64,000 bases of DNA, taken from positions 695,501-759,500 of the forward strand of contig NZ_CP043028.1 in NCBI RefSeq assembly GCF_008935055.1, in the 5' to 3' direction. The stretch is from Pseudobutyrivibrio xylanivorans (GTDB lineage Bacteria; Bacillota; Clostridia; Lachnospirales; Lachnospiraceae). Positions within the stretch are counted from its first letter, which is position 1. Each line of letters opens with the position of its first letter. The translations under genes were made by a program, and so were the position numbers. A model generated the notes under the pieces. That model saw only the letters and a list, made by a program, of their open reading frames with translations, ran no database searches and was not told where the DNA came from. Shown here piece after piece: positions 1-7,279 of the stretch.

Positions 1-1
1 C

Positions 2-121
2 CGCACAACAAATACTCTTGCTCCATATCTTTTACTGGACGAAGATCGGATGCGTATGTGCCCGCTATCGCTTTCAGAGACCGGACTGTTAATGAAAGGA
101 GGGCGCTATGACATCGTATAA
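2..121 (+). CDS. C-terminal end of an upstream tyrosine recombinase (partial)
   Basis: An open frame enters from the left edge and stops with TAA at 119-121, overlapping the next start by 14 bases. The readable tail contains DEDRMRMCPLSL, which resembles the region just after the catalytic tyrosine in clostridial site-specific recombinases. Such recombinases often come as three overlapping genes, and the next two are clearly recombinases. Only about 39 codons are visible and no catalytic residue is in view, so the call rests on context. A second open frame ending TGA at 109-111 is an alternative. Confidence 0.35.
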   Translation, partial: RTTNTLAPYLLLDEDRMRMCPLSLSETGLLMKGGRYDIV

Positions 122-1091
122 GGATTATGAATATCAGAGCGTTCTTGCACCATACATAAGGGATTTTATTTCACAGATGCGTGCTCTCGGTTTCATCTAT
201 AATGTAAAAGGTTATCAGCTTTATCGATTTGACAGGTATTGGGCAGACAAGGGCTTTGATGGCACAATGATTACTATTGAAAGGCTTGAAGACTGGTTAA
301 AGGCGCTGCCTCAGGAAAGCAAGAGCAGTCATACCAGCCGCATAAGCGCAGTACGATCCTTATCCATATACCTTAACACACTTGGAATCAAAAGCTATGT
401 TCCGGTTGAAAGCGTAGGTAAGGATTATAAGAAAGTACATATATTCAGCAAGTCGGAACTACAGGAGCTTTTCAATATCGTCGATTCTTATCTTCCGAAA
501 TCGTTTAAACCTTCTGATTTTAGGATGGCAAACGAATATCCGGTAATGTTCCGCCTGTATTATTGTTGTGGAATGAGAAACAGCGAGGTTTGCTTGCTTA
601 AAGGAAGTGATGTCGACATCGAAAGAGGTATCATAACCATATATGATGGAAAAAACAGGAGAGACCGTCTGATATATCTTTCAGAAGATATGCGTGTGCT
701 TATTGAAGATTACTGGAATTATATCAGGAACACCCTAGGACATGAGCCGGTATGGTTTTTCCCCGGAAGATATGCCGATGATCATATGAAGAACACATCG
801 GTAGACAAACGATTCCGAGAGTTTTGGCTAAAGACAGAGGCATCCTCCACTTGTGTAAAGACGCCTACCCCGCATTCACTCCGACATACTTTCGTAGTGG
901 ATAGGATCAACCAGTGGATCCTTGAGGGGAAAGACCTCAATACGATGCTCATTTACCTGAGCAAATATCTTGGCCATAAGAATCCGGATGAAAGCTTTTA
1001 TTATTACCACCTTGTGGATGATGCATTTAAGATACTGAAAAAATATGACAAACTCACCGACGAGGTGATCCCGGAGGTGAGGCGCATATGA
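108..1091 (+). CDS. Tyrosine recombinase / integrase, second of a recombinase set
   Basis: Site-specific DNA recombinase of the phage-integrase fold, 327 aa. An N-terminal SAM-like core-binding domain covers about residues 10-100. The catalytic domain shows Arg157 (in GMRNSEV), His256-x-x-Arg259 (HSLRH), His290 (LGHKN) and a tyrosine cluster at 298-300 as nucleophile. All catalytic positions are present, so it may be active. The start has AAAGGAGG 5 bases upstream. Its stop overlaps the next start as ATGA, so the two are translationally coupled. Overlapping recombinase genes of this kind (Tn554-like sets) usually move a larger element, and this pair may be the mobility module of the adjoining accessory region. 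Confidence 0.9.
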   Translation: MTSYKDYEYQSVLAPYIRDFISQMRALGFIYNVKGYQLYRFDRYWADKGFDGTMITIERLEDWLKALPQESKSSHTSRISAVRSLSIYLNTLGIKSYVPVESVGKDYKKVHIFSKSELQELFNIVDSYLPKSFKPSDFRMANEYPVMFRLYYCCGMRNSEVCLLKGSDVDIERGIITIYDGKNRRDRLIYLSEDMRVLIEDYWNYIRNTLGHEPVWFFPGRYADDHMKNTSVDKRFREFWLKTEASSTCVKTPTPHSLRHTFVVDRINQWILEGKDLNTMLIYLSKYLGHKNPDESFYYYHLVDDAFKILKKYDKLTDEVIPEVRRI

Positions 1092-2122
1092 GAAAACAGG
1101 GCATTTTAACGGAAAAACTTTTCTTTTCGATGACATGGGACTATTTGAATGTTTACCTTCCCACACAGCACAGTGACAGTCCCAAGACAGTCAAATCTTA
1201 TGAGGATGCGCTGACGGTTTTTAGGAGATATATAACGGATGTCAAAAAAATACCGATGGAGAAGTTTCAGTTTGAAGATTTGACATATGACTTCGTACTG
1301 GATTACAGGATTTATCTTGTAGAAAAAGATTATAAACCGGCAACCGTGAATCATAGATTGACTGTCATATCAGCATATATGAAGTATGCTGCCACCAGAA
1401 GGATCGACCTGTATCAGATATACTTGAATGTATCGGACGTTCCGTATGTAACAGTTCCTTCACGGGTGGGTGAAATAATAGAGTCGCCGGTAATCATAAA
1501 AGAATATCTGGCTTCACCGGGCTCTTCGATGAAGGGTATCAGGGATCAGGTGATTCTTGTTGTTTTATATGATACCGCTATAAGGGCCGACGAACTTATC
1601 GGATTGGATATATCAGATGTTATCTTAAATACAGATGAGCCGCACTTACTGGTCAAAGGTAAAGGCGACAAAGAACGGTTTGCTGCCCTTTCAGAAAAGG
1701 CGGTTCCTCTGATAAAACGTTACATTTCGATATATCATAAAGACTTGAGAAAAAGATCCGCGCCATTCATATATACTGTCATAAAAGGAGAAATGGGGCG
1801 GATGTCTGAAAGAAACGTAGAGCGAATTGTCAAAAAATATGCTGACAAGATAAGAGAAAAATATCCGGAAATTCCGAACGTTTATCCACATATGCTTCGA
1901 AGGACACGGGCTACCGGGTGGTACCGCGATGGCGTCCCTATTGAGACTATAGCTGTAATCCTAGGACATGCTGATGCAAAAACGACGAGAAAATCATATG
2001 CCAGTCCTTCTGTTGAAATGTTAAGGGAGCAAATGGAAAAGGGAACAGAATCGGAGCCTGAACCAGAAAAACCGTTATGGAAAAATGATGAAGAATTAGC
2101 CCACATTTGTGGGATAAGGTAG
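1088..2122 (+). CDS. Tyrosine recombinase / integrase, third of a recombinase set
   Basis: A 344-aa phage-integrase-family recombinase. Residues about 15-115 form the core-binding domain. The catalytic residues are Arg166 (TAIRADEL), His268-x-x-Arg271 (HMLRR), His294 (ILGHAD) and Tyr304 (KSYAS). The C-terminal tail after residue 310 is acidic. It starts inside the stop codon of the preceding recombinase (ATGA), with GGAGGTGAGG upstream. Only 6 bases separate its stop from the IS66 remnant on the other strand, so the IS66 right end and any terminator here have been lost or replaced. Confidence 0.9.
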   Translation: MRKQGILTEKLFFSMTWDYLNVYLPTQHSDSPKTVKSYEDALTVFRRYITDVKKIPMEKFQFEDLTYDFVLDYRIYLVEKDYKPATVNHRLTVISAYMKYAATRRIDLYQIYLNVSDVPYVTVPSRVGEIIESPVIIKEYLASPGSSMKGIRDQVILVVLYDTAIRADELIGLDISDVILNTDEPHLLVKGKGDKERFAALSEKAVPLIKRYISIYHKDLRKRSAPFIYTVIKGEMGRMSERNVERIVKKYADKIREKYPEIPNVYPHMLRRTRATGWYRDGVPIETIAVILGHADAKTTRKSYASPSVEMLREQMEKGTESEPEPEKPLWKNDEELAHICGIR

Positions 2123-2128
2123 CGATCA

Positions 2129-2572
2129 TTATGCGCAGCTTTTTTCTGTGAAGTCAGCATTTATAAGGCTTCCCAGAAAAAGCTGCGGATAAGTAATTCC
2201 TTCGGATAAAGCCAAGTTGTTATCCATAGGAACTTCGCCATCTTCAAGGAAGACCTTTAGATACTGTTCCTGGTTTATTGAATACTGTAATCCTTTATGA
2301 GTTTTGCTATTAGCTAATACATTTGGTTCAACTTTATGAACCCACGCAAAGTAGGCCTCAACCAGAGGCTTGACAGTAAACTGTCGATGTTCGTATCTTT
2401 CGGCCGGAGAAAGGTCACTTAGCTTTTTCTCCTCGCGATAGATAGCCTGAATCATCTTCAGAGCTTTATTCGCAGTGCAGGATTTTTGCTTGTCCTTTGG
2501 TGTAGCCTTTAGGGCTTCATCAAATCGGCGTCTCAAACAAGACCTTTTATCTTGGTTGCCTTTCTTCCGCAA
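2129..2572 (-). pseudogene. IS66 transposase (TnpC) C-terminal fragment
   Basis: The readable product has RRRFDEALKA, then AYFAWVHKVEPNVL and FLEDGEVPMDNNLA, which is the last third of an IS66 DDE transposase. The normal text after MDNNLA (catalytic Glu, then IRPF/IRSF) is out of frame: a neighbouring frame encodes LLIRSF, so a frameshift lies at about 2215. The DDE aspartates upstream are deleted. The first codons come from the tnpB junction and are not a real start. Confidence 0.85.
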
Positions 2573-3208: not shown

Positions 3209-3222
3209 GATTTACCGTTTAC
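3209..3222 (-). repeat. IS66-type terminal inverted repeat
   Basis: GATTTACCGTTTAC on the plus strand reads GTAAACGGTAAATC inward on the minus strand, directly outside tnpA. An exact inverted copy is at 5652-5665. Confidence 0.7.
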
Positions 3223-3440: not shown

Positions 3441-3446
3441 ATTCTT

Positions 3447-3455
3447 ATTATACCA
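3447..3455 (-). promoter_or_regulatory. Extended -10 promoter for the candidate small RNA
   Basis: The minus strand reads TGGTATAAT, an extended -10 with the full TATAAT hexamer. No good -35 is visible, which extended -10 promoters can tolerate. Confidence 0.4.
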
Positions 3456-3520
3456 TTCCTACCTAGGCCTCAGGCCCCGGTCTGCCCGAACTTCCCAGAC
3501 CACTCGCTAACGCAAGCAAG

Positions 3521-3557
3521 GAATAATTGTAATCGGCTCCGCCGATGAAACATCGGT
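3521..3557 (+). repeat. Left copy of direct repeat bounding the protease/GNAT cassette
   Basis: The 26 bases at 3521-3546 match 5621-5646 with two mismatches, exactly 2100 bases apart. The core ATCGGC-TCC-GCCGAT is a small hairpin. CCGATG-AAA-CATCGG follows in this copy. Beyond position 3546 the similarity continues as AAACATCGGT against AAAC(5-base insert)ATCGGT in the right copy. Confidence 0.75.
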
Positions 3558-3625
3558 AGTTACTTAACAAAATACATATTTTATATATTATACTTTCATA
3601 AGCAGCATTCACACTCTTCATCAAT

Positions 3626-3844
3626 TTAAAATAATATTTGATAGTTATTTATGCAAGATCTATATTGCAACTGCTTATTTTCTCCTGTCCTATTTGCATA
3701 ATATTCCTTCGGAACAGAATCCGAAATACTCTTCGCTCTGAATCCTCTAGAATCTACAATTGACAAACCGCAATCAGCCGATGATTCTGTCAAATAAACA
3801 TCTTCATTTGTCATCTTTTTTATTTCTTCAACTATGCTTTTCAA
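3626..3844 (-). CDS. Small hypothetical protein, 72 aa, last gene of the protease/GNAT cassette
   Basis: I do not recognise this family. The product is mixed charged and polar with no membrane segment. The start is TTG at 3844, supported by GGGAGGG about 7 bases upstream and by a TTGA overlap with the protease stop. That overlap indicates coupled translation and a shared job with the protease. The right copy of the flanking repeat is beyond the first gene and the left copy is 69 bases beyond this one, so it belongs to the repeat-bounded unit. It could be a protease partner or an immunity/antitoxin-like protein, but nothing in the sequence decides. Confidence 0.6.
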   Translation of the reverse strand: MKSIVEEIKKMTNEDVYLTESSADCGLSIVDSRGFRAKSISDSVPKEYYANRTGENKQLQYRSCINNYQILF

Positions 3845-4701
3845 ATTCGTCCCTCCCTAGTAAAGGTCATTCCACCCATATTACTTAATTGTTTGAACTC
3901 CCTCGCCATAGAATAAAACGACAATATATACTTTTCAGCATTTTCAATATCACTAAAATCATCAATTATTAATTTTAGATTTCTCAAAGTCTCTATATTA
4001 AGAGGCCGTCCATGTGCCTTCCATCGCTTATAATTTCCTAACCCTTCAGCTATCTCTTTAGCCCTGTTCTCCTTCTCTGATACACTTACTTCTTTTCCTG
4101 TAGATTTATGTTTAGTCCAGTCTTTAAACTTGTACTTTACTAGCCAATCTTTCAACAAATCAACAGTTAAATCTCTAGCTTGTTCATACAAACTAAGTTC
4201 TGCTAAATCAAAATCTTTCAAAATTAAAAACTCTGCTTGTGAAATAGATCCATCTCTTGCCGCTTCCAACAATGTATCTATCTTATCCAAATAACCTAAT
4301 GCAGGAACAAACCTTCCCTCCTTATTCTGAACCTGAGGATCAATTGGTCCTAATACAGAATTATAATTCATAAATATTTTATCTCCACTCATACACAAAA
4401 TCGTACCAGCACTATAGGCATAATCAGGTATAATAAAATACACTGTATCATAATTGTGTCTGAATACATTCACTAATCGCTCGGCCGAATTTGCATCTCC
4501 GCCATTTGTTGTTAACATAATACATAATTTACCATGTGTATCATACTTTCTTAAGAGGCCAATCTCATCAACAACAACACTATTGAGTTCAGCTGAAATA
4601 GGACCATCTATGTAAAGAAAATCTGCTTCAAATATACGTTCCAGCTCTGTAATATCATCAATCATTTTTTCATTAATTACTTTTCTTATTGTGTCATTCA
4701 T
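3841..4701 (-). CDS. SDH-type Clp-fold serine protease
   Basis: A 286-aa protein of the serine dehydrogenase proteinase (SppA/ClpP-fold) family. Evidence is TTNGGD at 64-69 (substrate and oxyanion strand), AYSAGT with the nucleophile Ser97, and LGPIDPQ at 117-123, the usual order in this family. There is no signal peptide, so it is cytosolic unless partnered. The C-terminal half (about 150-286) is helical and charged. The start lies 36 bases after the GNAT stop with GGGAAG upstream. Family members are known in phages and mobile islands but substrates are mostly unknown. Its role here is probably set by its GNAT neighbour. Confidence 0.8.
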   Translation of the reverse strand: MNDTIRKVINEKMIDDITELERIFEADFLYIDGPISAELNSVVVDEIGLLRKYDTHGKLCIMLTTNGGDANSAERLVNVFRHNYDTVYFIIPDYAYSAGTILCMSGDKIFMNYNSVLGPIDPQVQNKEGRFVPALGYLDKIDTLLEAARDGSISQAEFLILKDFDLAELSLYEQARDLTVDLLKDWLVKYKFKDWTKHKSTGKEVSVSEKENRAKEIAEGLGNYKRWKAHGRPLNIETLRNLKLIIDDFSDIENAEKYILSFYSMAREFKQLSNMGGMTFTREGRI

Positions 4702-4737
4702 AACTACTTCCCTTATTATTGCTTTAATTATCTATAT

Positions 4738-5313
4738 CTACTCAAAAATTCTTGTAATTGCATCCTCTGTTATTAGCGAAAAAATCAATGGTGTACAGTC
4801 CTTTATATTGAGCTTTTCCTCCTCATTCGGCAATATATATTCATCTGTTTTTACAAATCCAAATTTAATATATAACTTTAAACCTTTATCATTGGCATTT
4901 AACGTAACAGCACAAAATCCAATTGAATTCGTGGACATATAATATAATTCTTGCATTAAAGATTGGAAAACTTTATAACTGTATCTAATACCGTCAACAT
5001 CCGTAACACCGTCGCCCCTCAAACGTCTTGATACAGCAAACATGCGTATCTCAACGCAAGACAAATACTTGGCGTGCTCTGCTTTGTATAATAACCCTGT
5101 ACAGTTAATTGAAGCATATGCATATATTTTTGTTATATGATTTTCAGCATTTTCTTCACTATCAACTGCTACATAAGTTGCAGCGTATCCGTTATCCATC
5201 CAATTAAAAGACTTCTCTTGCAAAAAAATATTAAACTCATAATCCCCACAATCAAAATTTTTAATAACTTCTAATGGGACTTCGCGGATAGATTTCCACT
5301 CAAAATTATTCAT
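4738..5313 (-). CDS. GNAT-family N-acetyltransferase
   Basis: A 191-aa GNAT-fold protein. The N-terminus FDCGDYEFNIFLQE matches the start typical of toxin-type GNATs (F-x-CG-x-x-x-L-x-x-FL). The acetyl-CoA loop is RRLRGDG at 96-102 after strand EIRMFAV. It starts in an ATGA overlap with the 54-aa ORF before it. Toxin GNATs of the TacT/AtaT kind acetylate charged aminoacyl-tRNA and are paired with a small upstream antitoxin. The small upstream gene fits that layout, but it has no recognisable DNA-binding fold, so the toxin reading is an inference. Confidence 0.75.
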   Translation of the reverse strand: MNNFEWKSIREVPLEVIKNFDCGDYEFNIFLQEKSFNWMDNGYAATYVAVDSEENAENHITKIYAYASINCTGLLYKAEHAKYLSCVEIRMFAVSRRLRGDGVTDVDGIRYSYKVFQSLMQELYYMSTNSIGFCAVTLNANDKGLKLYIKFGFVKTDEYILPNEEEKLNIKDCTPLIFSLITEDAITRIFE

Positions 5314-5474
5314 CTATTTTCCCTGAATAAATCATCCAGTCTGCTTTTATCAATTATTCTAGACTCATTTTTAATTTTTTCCCACTCTTCTGTTTTCAGA
5401 GATGACGAATAAAATTTTTTCAAAAAATCCTCTTTTTTTTCAGGGTTTATGGTATATGCTATTTCTCTATACAT
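5310..5474 (-). CDS. Small 54-aa ORF coupled to the GNAT gene
   Basis: ATG at 5474 has AGGAGG 8 bases upstream (TAGGAGGTAATAGGT then ATG), and its TGA overlaps the GNAT start as ATGA. The product begins MYREIAYTIN, is highly charged and predicted helical, with many Lys and Glu, and ends DDLFRENR. I do not recognise the family. Position and size fit an antitoxin or small partner for the GNAT. The strong ribosome site and exact overlap make it very likely to be translated. Confidence 0.7.
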   Translation of the reverse strand: MYREIAYTINPEKKEDFLKKFYSSSLKTEEWEKIKNESRIIDKSRLDDLFRENR

Positions 5475-5521
5475 ACCTATTACCTCCTAAAAACACCATA
5501 AAAAAGCTTTTTTCTACTTTT

Positions 5522-5581
5522 TGTAAAATTATTATAACTTTTACATGTGACCATTTATTGTTCTTTCACAGAATTATAACA
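5522..5581 (-). promoter_or_regulatory. Promoter region of the 54-aa/GNAT/protease cassette
   Basis: The minus strand has TGTTATAAT (5573-5581), an extended -10. Downstream, a 7-base inverted repeat TGTAAAA/TTTTACA (5522-5528 and 5539-5545) surrounds a second TATAAT, as expected for an operator. No clear -35 is seen. Confidence 0.4.
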
Positions 5582-5620
5582 ATATTTACATATTTTTTCC
5601 ACAAATTGATTTTATTAAAA

Positions 5621-5669
5621 GAATGATTATAATCGGCTCCGCCGATAAGTCGTAAACGGTAAATCGGTT
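5621..5669 (+). repeat. Right copy of direct repeat bounding the protease/GNAT cassette
   Basis: Matches 3521-3546 with two mismatches over 26 bases, including ATCGGC-TCC-GCCGAT. It runs into GTAAACGGTAAATC at 5652-5665, which is the IS66-type end in inverted orientation to 3209-3222. The two repeats enclose the four small-cassette genes and nothing else. Confidence 0.75.
5652..5665 (+). repeat. Inverted copy of the IS66-type terminal repeat
   Basis: GTAAACGGTAAATC is an exact inverted match to 3209-3222. It directly abuts the ISL3 end at 5666. No other IS66 sequence remains beside it, so it is an orphan end or part of the cassette boundary. Confidence 0.6.
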
Positions 5670-6055: not shown

Positions 6056-7279
6056 TCACAGTTTATAAAACTTTTGCTCACATAAATGATTCTCAAATCT
6101 ATAAAATCCCGTATTTTGATAAACAACATCTTTTCCTGATATTTTAACTCGATTTACACAACTATATAAATTTTGATTATCATCAAAGGTTTTAGCGAAA
6201 TAACTATTTTTGTTAAGACATTCTGCCGAACCCAATTCTAAGCTCAAGAACTCCTCATAATTGGCTGGTCTTGTAATTTGGATTTTTTCACAAATTTCCC
6301 CATATTTTTCGTTTACAGAAGACGATTCAAATGCAGGAAACGCTACATTCACCATTTGCGGAAGGACAATGTCTTCCTCACTACTCAATATTCGCTTAGA
6401 CAGATAAGCAACTCCATCAATTCCGAGTTTCTTTAAATTTAACATTATTAAGTGAGAAATAATATAATCTGAGCGAAATTTCCCTCTTGGAGATTTATTT
6501 CTTATGGATGTAGCTATAACCAATGGATATATCCTCAGCAGTGATTTTATTATAGACAGATTACTGTCCATATTATTCTCATCTCCTATTGGTGAATTTA
6601 ATCCTAAGAGCAAATAGGGGGTTGCCACTAAATTCAAAATCTGCATTTTCTTCCCCTTTTCAGTTAATTTTATTGCAGACACATTAAAGTCACTGTACGC
6701 TGGACGCCCCATTTCTAACCAAACATCATACACCGATGTTCCCAAATATAGGCATGGTATTCCTGGCACGCTAAAGCGTTCAGTTCCAACTAAATCTCGT
6801 TTATCCAAAGGTATATGGTACATTTCAGAATAATCGGTAAAATATTCTTTCCTAGCTCTGAAAAAAGTAAGTTCATTATCCAGCATCCTTTTTATCTGTT
6901 CGGAAGAAAGATTTATATTTAAAAATGGATAATTTGCACATAGCCTTGAACAATAATTCTTATCAATATCTGACTTAATAAAACCGTTTTTATCATCCAA
7001 TATAATTCTTTCTAATAACGAACCTATTCTTTTTGTCGCAGTTGCAATATCTCCAGCATAATAACGACTAATACAATTTTTTATTATTCCACCATCAGTT
7101 CGTATTGCATTTATAATTCTTTGTTTTTCTGTAATTGAAAGTTGAGTTGCTATACCATTCCTATCCTCAAATAATCCTGCAACCCACTTTTTATAAGTTC
7201 GCATACATTTATCAAATGCATTAATATAGTCGGCATCTGACCCTATTTCATATGGTAACCTTACTATTTCATAGTCCAT
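6056..7279 (-). CDS. RES-domain protein, probable NAD-degrading effector
   Basis: A 407-aa protein. Residues about 135-195 carry the RES core: FFRARKE with Arg141/Arg143, GTERFS at 165-170, CLYLGTS and the Glu of VWLEM at 189. RES enzymes such as the toxin of Xre-RES pairs degrade NAD+. The N-terminal 130 residues are helical and resemble the extra helical domain found in longer RES proteins. The C-terminal third is unassigned. The start has GGAGGGG 5 bases upstream. It lies 53 bases after an XRE regulator gene, most likely in one operon from the promoter at 7754-7782. The stop codon is almost at the ISL3 junction, but the protein appears complete. Confidence 0.7.
   Translation of the reverse strand: MDYEIVRLPYEIGSDADYINAFDKCMRTYKKWVAGLFEDRNGIATQLSITEKQRIINAIRTDGGIIKNCISRYYAGDIATATKRIGSLLERIILDDKNGFIKSDIDKNYCSRLCANYPFLNINLSSEQIKRMLDNELTFFRARKEYFTDYSEMYHIPLDKRDLVGTERFSVPGIPCLYLGTSVYDVWLEMGRPAYSDFNVSAIKLTEKGKKMQILNLVATPYLLLGLNSPIGDENNMDSNLSIIKSLLRIYPLVIATSIRNKSPRGKFRSDYIISHLIMLNLKKLGIDGVAYLSKRILSSEEDIVLPQMVNVAFPAFESSSVNEKYGEICEKIQITRPANYEEFLSLELGSAECLNKNSYFAKTFDDNQNLYSCVNRVKISGKDVVYQNTGFYRFENHLCEQKFYKL

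Follow-up and report, generated by a model that had tools for sequence, protein, structure and literature searches.

The rexAB genes of phage lambda lie downstream of the repressor gene cI and make up an accessory module, which differs from phage to phage. In the ImmA/ImmR pair, ImmA cleaves the repressor ImmR or helps to cleave it, and the GNAT toxin-antitoxin modules of the TacAT/AtaRT type contain an antitoxin of the RHH type. The attC sites of integrons are characterized by the core boxes GTTRRRY and RYYYAAC. According to two reports, PD-T4-9 is the CmdTAC system; its toxin contains an ADP-ribosyltransferase domain, and ClpP degrades its antitoxin when T4 infects the cell (PMC9519451, PMC11618068).

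The locus described here belongs to Pseudobutyrivibrio xylanivorans MA3014, for which the genome report gives replicons of 3,412,851 and 88,942 bases and a total of 3,584,491 bases (PMC7523725). It is located in a window of 64,000 nucleotides (the whole stretch of DNA that was analyzed, to which all window coordinates refer), where the first-pass annotation had delineated four genes between two direct repeats as one coupled operon that looked like a unit acquired by site-specific or transposon-type insertion. The scenario that we favor, with a probability of roughly one half, is that two independent two-gene conflict modules were brought together in a fluid accessory region, that one of them, a protease and its small partner, is a phage-exclusion module, and that the repeats are copies of an exchange element. 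The idea of a mobile unit is partly right, but what was learned about the protease pair and its prophage location is of more value.

The layout of the repeats and genes is largely as originally delineated. Direct comparison confirms two mismatches between the 26-mers (3521-3546 and 5621-5646) and a spacing of exactly 2100 bases; the repeats enclose four ORFs with two 4-nucleotide overlaps, ATGA and TTGA. The repeats can be extended to 3518-3546 and 5618-5646, both read on the plus strand, with 26 of the 29 positions identical and the same start-to-start distance; the 18-nucleotide core, with up to three mismatches allowed, occurs twice in the window, and none of 100 shuffles matched. All four ORFs are on the minus strand. 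A 54-aa ORF (5310..5474), the putative partner of the acetyltransferase, overlaps by ATGA the gene for a 191-aa GNAT-like acetyltransferase (4738..5313; match to PHROG 1758, acetyltransferase, at 4.8e-11, with Pfam GNAT matches below the cut-off only). The gene for a 286-aa predicted ClpP-fold serine protease of the SDH type (3841..4701; match to PF01972) overlaps by TTGA a 72-aa ORF (3626..3844), which is probably a divergent partner of the protease, as judged from its position, the overlap and the partner HMM described below. Because a gap of 36 nucleotides separates the GNAT gene from the protease gene, these genes form two overlapping pairs (the 54-aa ORF with the GNAT, and the protease with the 72-aa ORF) rather than one four-gene chain. 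Just to the right of the short repeat copy, a motif on the plus strand (5652..5665) is identical in all 14 positions to an IS66-type element end at 3209-3222, and locus L073 has an end, GTAAACGGTAAA, that resembles this motif.

The left repeat corresponds to the 3'-terminal part of a structured element of approximately 105 nucleotides (3445..3549; covariance model R1 match of 103 bits), and the right repeat (5618..5646) contains only the last 29 nucleotides of this element, with 27 bits from the same model. A covariance model built from 26 element copies (alignment A2, 26 of the 30 copies kept, after 3 poor ones had been removed earlier) produced 67 matches in 20 of the 29 Pseudobutyrivibrio genomes, and BLAST detected the element in 22 of the 29; further copies in the source genome are located at approximately 3.24-3.27 Mb, and a weak copy (44 bits) is present on the 88.9-kb replicon. 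No counterpart of the element was detected in any other genus: 2 of the 299 genomes of the family match, both Pseudobutyrivibrio, and 7 of the 295 genomes of the order, searched with the stricter filters of Infernal, all belong to this one of 129 genera. The element is structured and specific to Pseudobutyrivibrio. Among the 26 copies, 35 cells changed on both sides of a stem compared with a shuffled mean of 10.0 (sd 2.2), a comparison in which kinship alone can push sequences above shuffles; the fraction of paired cells is 91.2% in the element structure and 32.5-41.8% when the structure is slid, the structure tested being the consensus fold, which favors it over the slid versions. The left and right cores tend to co-vary as direct repeats (8 sites were skipped, along with all those shorter than 90 nucleotides). 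Locus L007 has no Rfam match at the gathering score, and loci L001-L005 yielded two weak matches, both outside the element; an exact 25-nucleotide element pattern was absent from viral contigs, and plasmid records had no match either. Read in antisense, the element often has a sequence resembling an extended -10 box at its left edge, and at 14 of the 36 copies with an antisense left neighbor the gene starts within 40 nucleotides, according to simple ORF calls; a promoter role of this edge is possible. Beside or near the element there is also another repeat, up to approximately 170 nucleotides long and starting near AAGTGCTGCTGAGCAAGCCCAGCAGC, namely at the right flanks of L059:11808, L077:10041 and L077:8443 and within the right flank of L083:9350.

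Comparison of the 100-nucleotide flanks of 55 of the 67 sites (identity thresholds of 0.72 and 0.62, with intermediate pairs uncounted) revealed no pair with both flanks kept and 16 pairs with one flank kept, 7 of these on the left only (one within the same genome) and 9 on the right only. Among the alignments listed, the loci that contain the element are mosaics of modules of 0.3-2.5 kb. Exchange of neighboring DNA at the element is supported by the one-sided flanks. The gain of the four genes by insertion is retained in part: the repeat belongs to an element with one-sided flank differences between genomes, and a self-contained transposon or integron is not supported. Insertion with target duplication was considered and rejected, since no clean empty site with a single repeat copy of the kind anticipated in the first-pass annotation was found; the nearest case, L083/L075, which is also the only two-sided pair at elements, is an untidy replacement. 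More generally, the accessory regions of the genus are mosaics in which different species share reshuffled gene-sized modules of 93-100% identity, and several of the breakpoints carry short palindromes of other kinds; the mosaics were compared for L057 with L059, for L021, L053, L054, L064 and L076, and for L075 with L083.

The alternative that survives best, and to which we assign somewhat less than even odds, is that the element is only a dispersed structured repeat, which either serves RecA-type exchange as a short stretch of homology or is carried along inertly in a plastic region, the bounding of the four genes being partly a coincidence. The right copy in the window consists of just 29 nucleotides, the near-empty site is untidy, and segments shared between loci can extend 28-104 nucleotides past the element, all of which is compatible with this scenario. 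Furthermore, 403 element-free intergenic points gave 318 pairs, of which 284 were one-sided and 34 two-sided. Elements are nevertheless one-sided more often than these controls, in 70 of 71 pairs with a single two-sided case (Fisher p 0.010, where pairs are not independent and the element side used 57 copies), although the excess is modest because the element-free points are mostly one-sided as well. More difficult to reconcile with a passenger is the sharp divergence at the right edge: in five groups with a common left flank, the right flanks part within approximately 3 nucleotides of the end of the terminal hairpin.

This sharp edge, together with the absence of pairs with both flanks kept and the covarying structure, could also indicate that the bounded cassette is integron-like and is recombined at the element by some integrase that would cross over immediately beyond the terminal hairpin. 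We regard this possibility as doubtful. The pair L021/L088 is still alike approximately 27 nucleotides beyond the hairpin, and partial copies of the element found elsewhere, of left-only and right-only kinds, break at many places. The integron integrase TIGR02249 is over the cut-off in none of the 29 genomes, although each of them, like each of the 14 controls, has matches below it; inspection of the A2 consensus found no attC core box on either strand; and the orientation of the genes around 51 copies, by simple ORF calls that left out 6 weak copies and matches with end minus start below 90, is mixed (27 -/-, 10 +/+, 9 -/+ and 5 +/-). A canonical integron is rejected, given that no integrase is over the cut-off. 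With four tyrosine recombinases as phmmer queries against 940 ORFs near elements, the only matches other than the queries themselves were one each in L086 and L088, so relatives of these enzymes do not recur near elements. Thus, exchange at the element is regarded as supported and an integron is not; the searches found no integron integrase over the cut-off, no Y1 transposase that tracks the element and no recurrent relative of the four tyrosine recombinases near the copies.

Mobilization of the RAYT/IS200-like type was weakened as a candidate, though it may have acted in the past, with Y1_Tnp detected in only 10 of the 29 genomes and missing from several element-rich ones such as G301, G303, G320 and G325. 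Near the left end of the window (1-2209), as in L006:3476-7710, three tyrosine recombinase genes (for proteins of 659, 327 and 344 aa) constitute a trio element of approximately 4.2 kb with inverted-repeat ends. The recombinases at 108-2122 are part of this trio element, which lies within an IS66 stretch that is uninterrupted at this place in L073, and because they belong to a separate element nothing indicates an action of these enzymes on the repeats. Two other recombinase genes were observed: at L086:13588-15668, 5 kb from an element, the gene for a 282-aa XerC-like integrase adjoins that for a distant SDH protease of 364 aa, and in L021:5370-6356 a tyrosine recombinase gene is located between genes that on inspection look like hsdS of a type I restriction locus, an arrangement known from phase-variable systems.

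The protease of the window matches the Pfam family SDH_protease (PF01972) with 62.7 bits, above the curated cut-off of 31.3, and the NCBIfam equivalog NF047768 with 64 bits, below the cut-off of 250; the predicted model of the protein has a ClpP fold. S97 and K140 are invariant across the 25 sequences of alignment A4 and probably form a catalytic Ser-Lys dyad as in NfeD-type proteases. The family comprises 4830 proteins from many phyla, and matches to the protease were found in 3 records of the phage collection and 28 of the plasmid collection. A small ORF on the same strand directly follows the protease gene in 66 of 78 loci compared with 17 of 256 control genes (2 of the 80 loci were left out, for a contig edge and for lack of an ORF, and at L157, counted among the 66, the ORF is other than the one picked by the HMM). 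An HMM built from half of the partner set recovered 30 of the 33 held-out partners, although not the 72-aa ORF of the window, and gave 6 matches among 1468 other ORFs; all 6 sit at the 3' end of a protease gene and are therefore probably missed partners. With the full partner HMM, run on a small set of 43 sequences, the 72-aa ORF has a full-sequence E-value of 3.3e-4 and a best-domain value of 0.019, and so it is probably a divergent member of the partner family. In PHROGs, the protease and the E. coli partner correspond to entries of unknown function and the 72-aa ORF has no match; in PADLOC, the four genes of the window have no match at E 1, and none was obtained at 0.01 for the pair from E. 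coli or for two further proteases. Among the matches listed for the 134 of 221 proteins scanned in the neighborhoods of chromosomal copies, each of 25 families is represented by at most 5 proteins. On Rhizobium plasmids (L200 and L206), the pair follows multiubiquitin, ThiF and DUF6527 genes. Among the matches listed for the open-licence PMC literature, no title or abstract describes the protease pair, or integrons in Pseudobutyrivibrio; one listed paper checked for a ClpP-like protein deals with a different one.

In E. coli, at least 80% of the protease pair is present in 17 of the 5426 complete genomes. All 13 inspected records among these 17 (12 chromosomes and the plasmid pSM107_MCR, on which lambdoid prophage genes surround the pair) encode a cI-type repressor upstream on the same strand, the call resting on annotation as a LexA-family or helix-turn-helix regulator. 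There is nothing between this gene and the pair in 9 records, a small transmembrane gene in 3 and an insertion sequence in 1; one E. coli record has the protease broken up into two ORFs. The E. coli pair thus occupies the rexAB position behind a cI-type repressor. In IMG/VR, relatives of the protease were found at 54 loci, and Peptidase_S24, the repressor type, was identified in 28 of the 46 (out of 53) upstream same-strand proteins scanned at positions -1 to -3. The viral loci, like those of E. coli, include near-identical copies and are not independent. That the protease pair governs lysogeny, cleaving the adjacent repressor or helping to cleave it in the manner of ImmA/ImmR, with no role in defense, is a reading favored by these S24-type and cI-type neighbors, but we consider it unlikely, since one and the same protease, WP_021518647, follows repressors of five different accessions, which fits a module that can be exchanged, and since no repressor adjoins the pair in the window or precedes it in the Rhizobium and Methylosinus copies that were inspected. 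The protease pair most likely acts as a phage-exclusion module.

Relatives of the GNAT are rare, with 15 proteins, itself included, among the matches listed by a word-based search. The nearest relatives of the GNAT (P0122, 84% identity) and of the protease (P0002, 88%) each have a longest contig of 5616 nucleotides, which suggests that the linkage of the two recurs in these relatives. The two genes also occur apart: three GNAT relatives in 397 genomes of the family (L262, L263 and L264) are preceded by a small ORF but lack a protease gene within 1.5 kb, and among the genes up to three positions from the protease in 79 loci, no GNAT relative scored better than E 0.16. The 54-aa ORF has no Pfam match up to E 5, a search of low power for so short an ORF, and accordingly no RHH antitoxin domain is seen. 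By analogy, we infer that the GNAT and its small 5' partner are a toxin-antitoxin-like pair. To the right of the repeats, at 6056-7279, the window encodes a 407-aa protein with a sub-threshold RES-domain match only, adjacent to a gene for a helix-turn-helix protein.

The same four-gene plan, with an ADP-ribosyltransferase-like gene in place of the GNAT, is found in Pseudobutyrivibrio sp. RUI201 (L119), which encodes a 62-aa ORF, a 197-aa ADP-ribosyltransferase-like protein, a protease 72% identical to that of the window, and a 67-aa ORF. The enzyme matches PARP at 9e-4 (19.2 bits, below the Pfam cut-off of 26.7) and the PADLOC model PD-T4-9_A, which presumably represents the CmdTAC toxin, at 4.4e-10. 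The coordinates of this protease are those of the match in genome G316, in which the element has no match. There is no chaperone match for the protease and the 72-aa ORF of the window; in L119, the scan covered the two genes before the protease.

The L119 enzyme, combined with the degradation of the CmdTAC antitoxin, leads us to propose protease-gated toxin release. The small partner would hold or aim the SDH-type protease, phage infection would alter this state, and the protease would then cleave a host or phage protein. Where a toxin-antitoxin-like pair sits in front, the protease would cleave the antitoxin, the loss of which would free the GNAT or the ADP-ribosyltransferase and abort the infection. 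At most of the loci inspected, the protease pair is not preceded by a toxin-like pair. Release of a toxin therefore cannot be how it generally works, and the pair must also work alone; beside cI, the protease could instead act on the repressor. A much bolder version, which we deem quite improbable as a whole, would be a kit for protease-gated immunity in which a dedicated protease and a small sensor or adaptor are combined with exchangeable toxin pairs (GNAT here, CmdT-like in the sister species), are found alone in prophages at the rexAB position, and are shuffled in Pseudobutyrivibrio via a new structured recombination site. A two-gene module that spans many phyla and occupies a classical phage-exclusion site has no PADLOC model. 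If it excludes phages, a ClpP-fold protease joins phage-encoded immunity, and proteolytic toxin release becomes directly testable. The structured repeat makes gene exchange testable in an important rumen genus.

Like REP/BIME sequences mobilized by RAYT (Y1) proteins, the element is a dispersed intergenic hairpin repeat, but the patchy distribution of Y1_Tnp, which several element-rich genomes lack, sets it apart. With integron cassettes and their attC sites it shares a foldable structured site at the junctions of exchanged genes, and it differs in the lack of an integrase over the cut-off, in the absence of the core box from the consensus and in the mixed orientation of the genes. The GNAT pair resembles the TacAT/AtaRT-type modules in that a small ORF overlaps the start of a GNAT-like enzyme, the difference being that no RHH domain is seen in the short 54-aa query. 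The protease pair is comparable to lambda rexAB and other lysogenic exclusion genes in its position downstream of a cI-type repressor, whereas its components are an SDH-type ClpP-fold protease and a small protein. The parallel with CmdTAC is a toxin-antitoxin-like pair, the release of which could depend on a ClpP-fold protease, with a PD-T4-9_A-like gene preceding the protease in L119; however, CmdTAC employs the host ClpP and a SecB-like chaperone, whereas the loci described here encode a dedicated SDH-type protease and its small partner, joined in the window by a GNAT.
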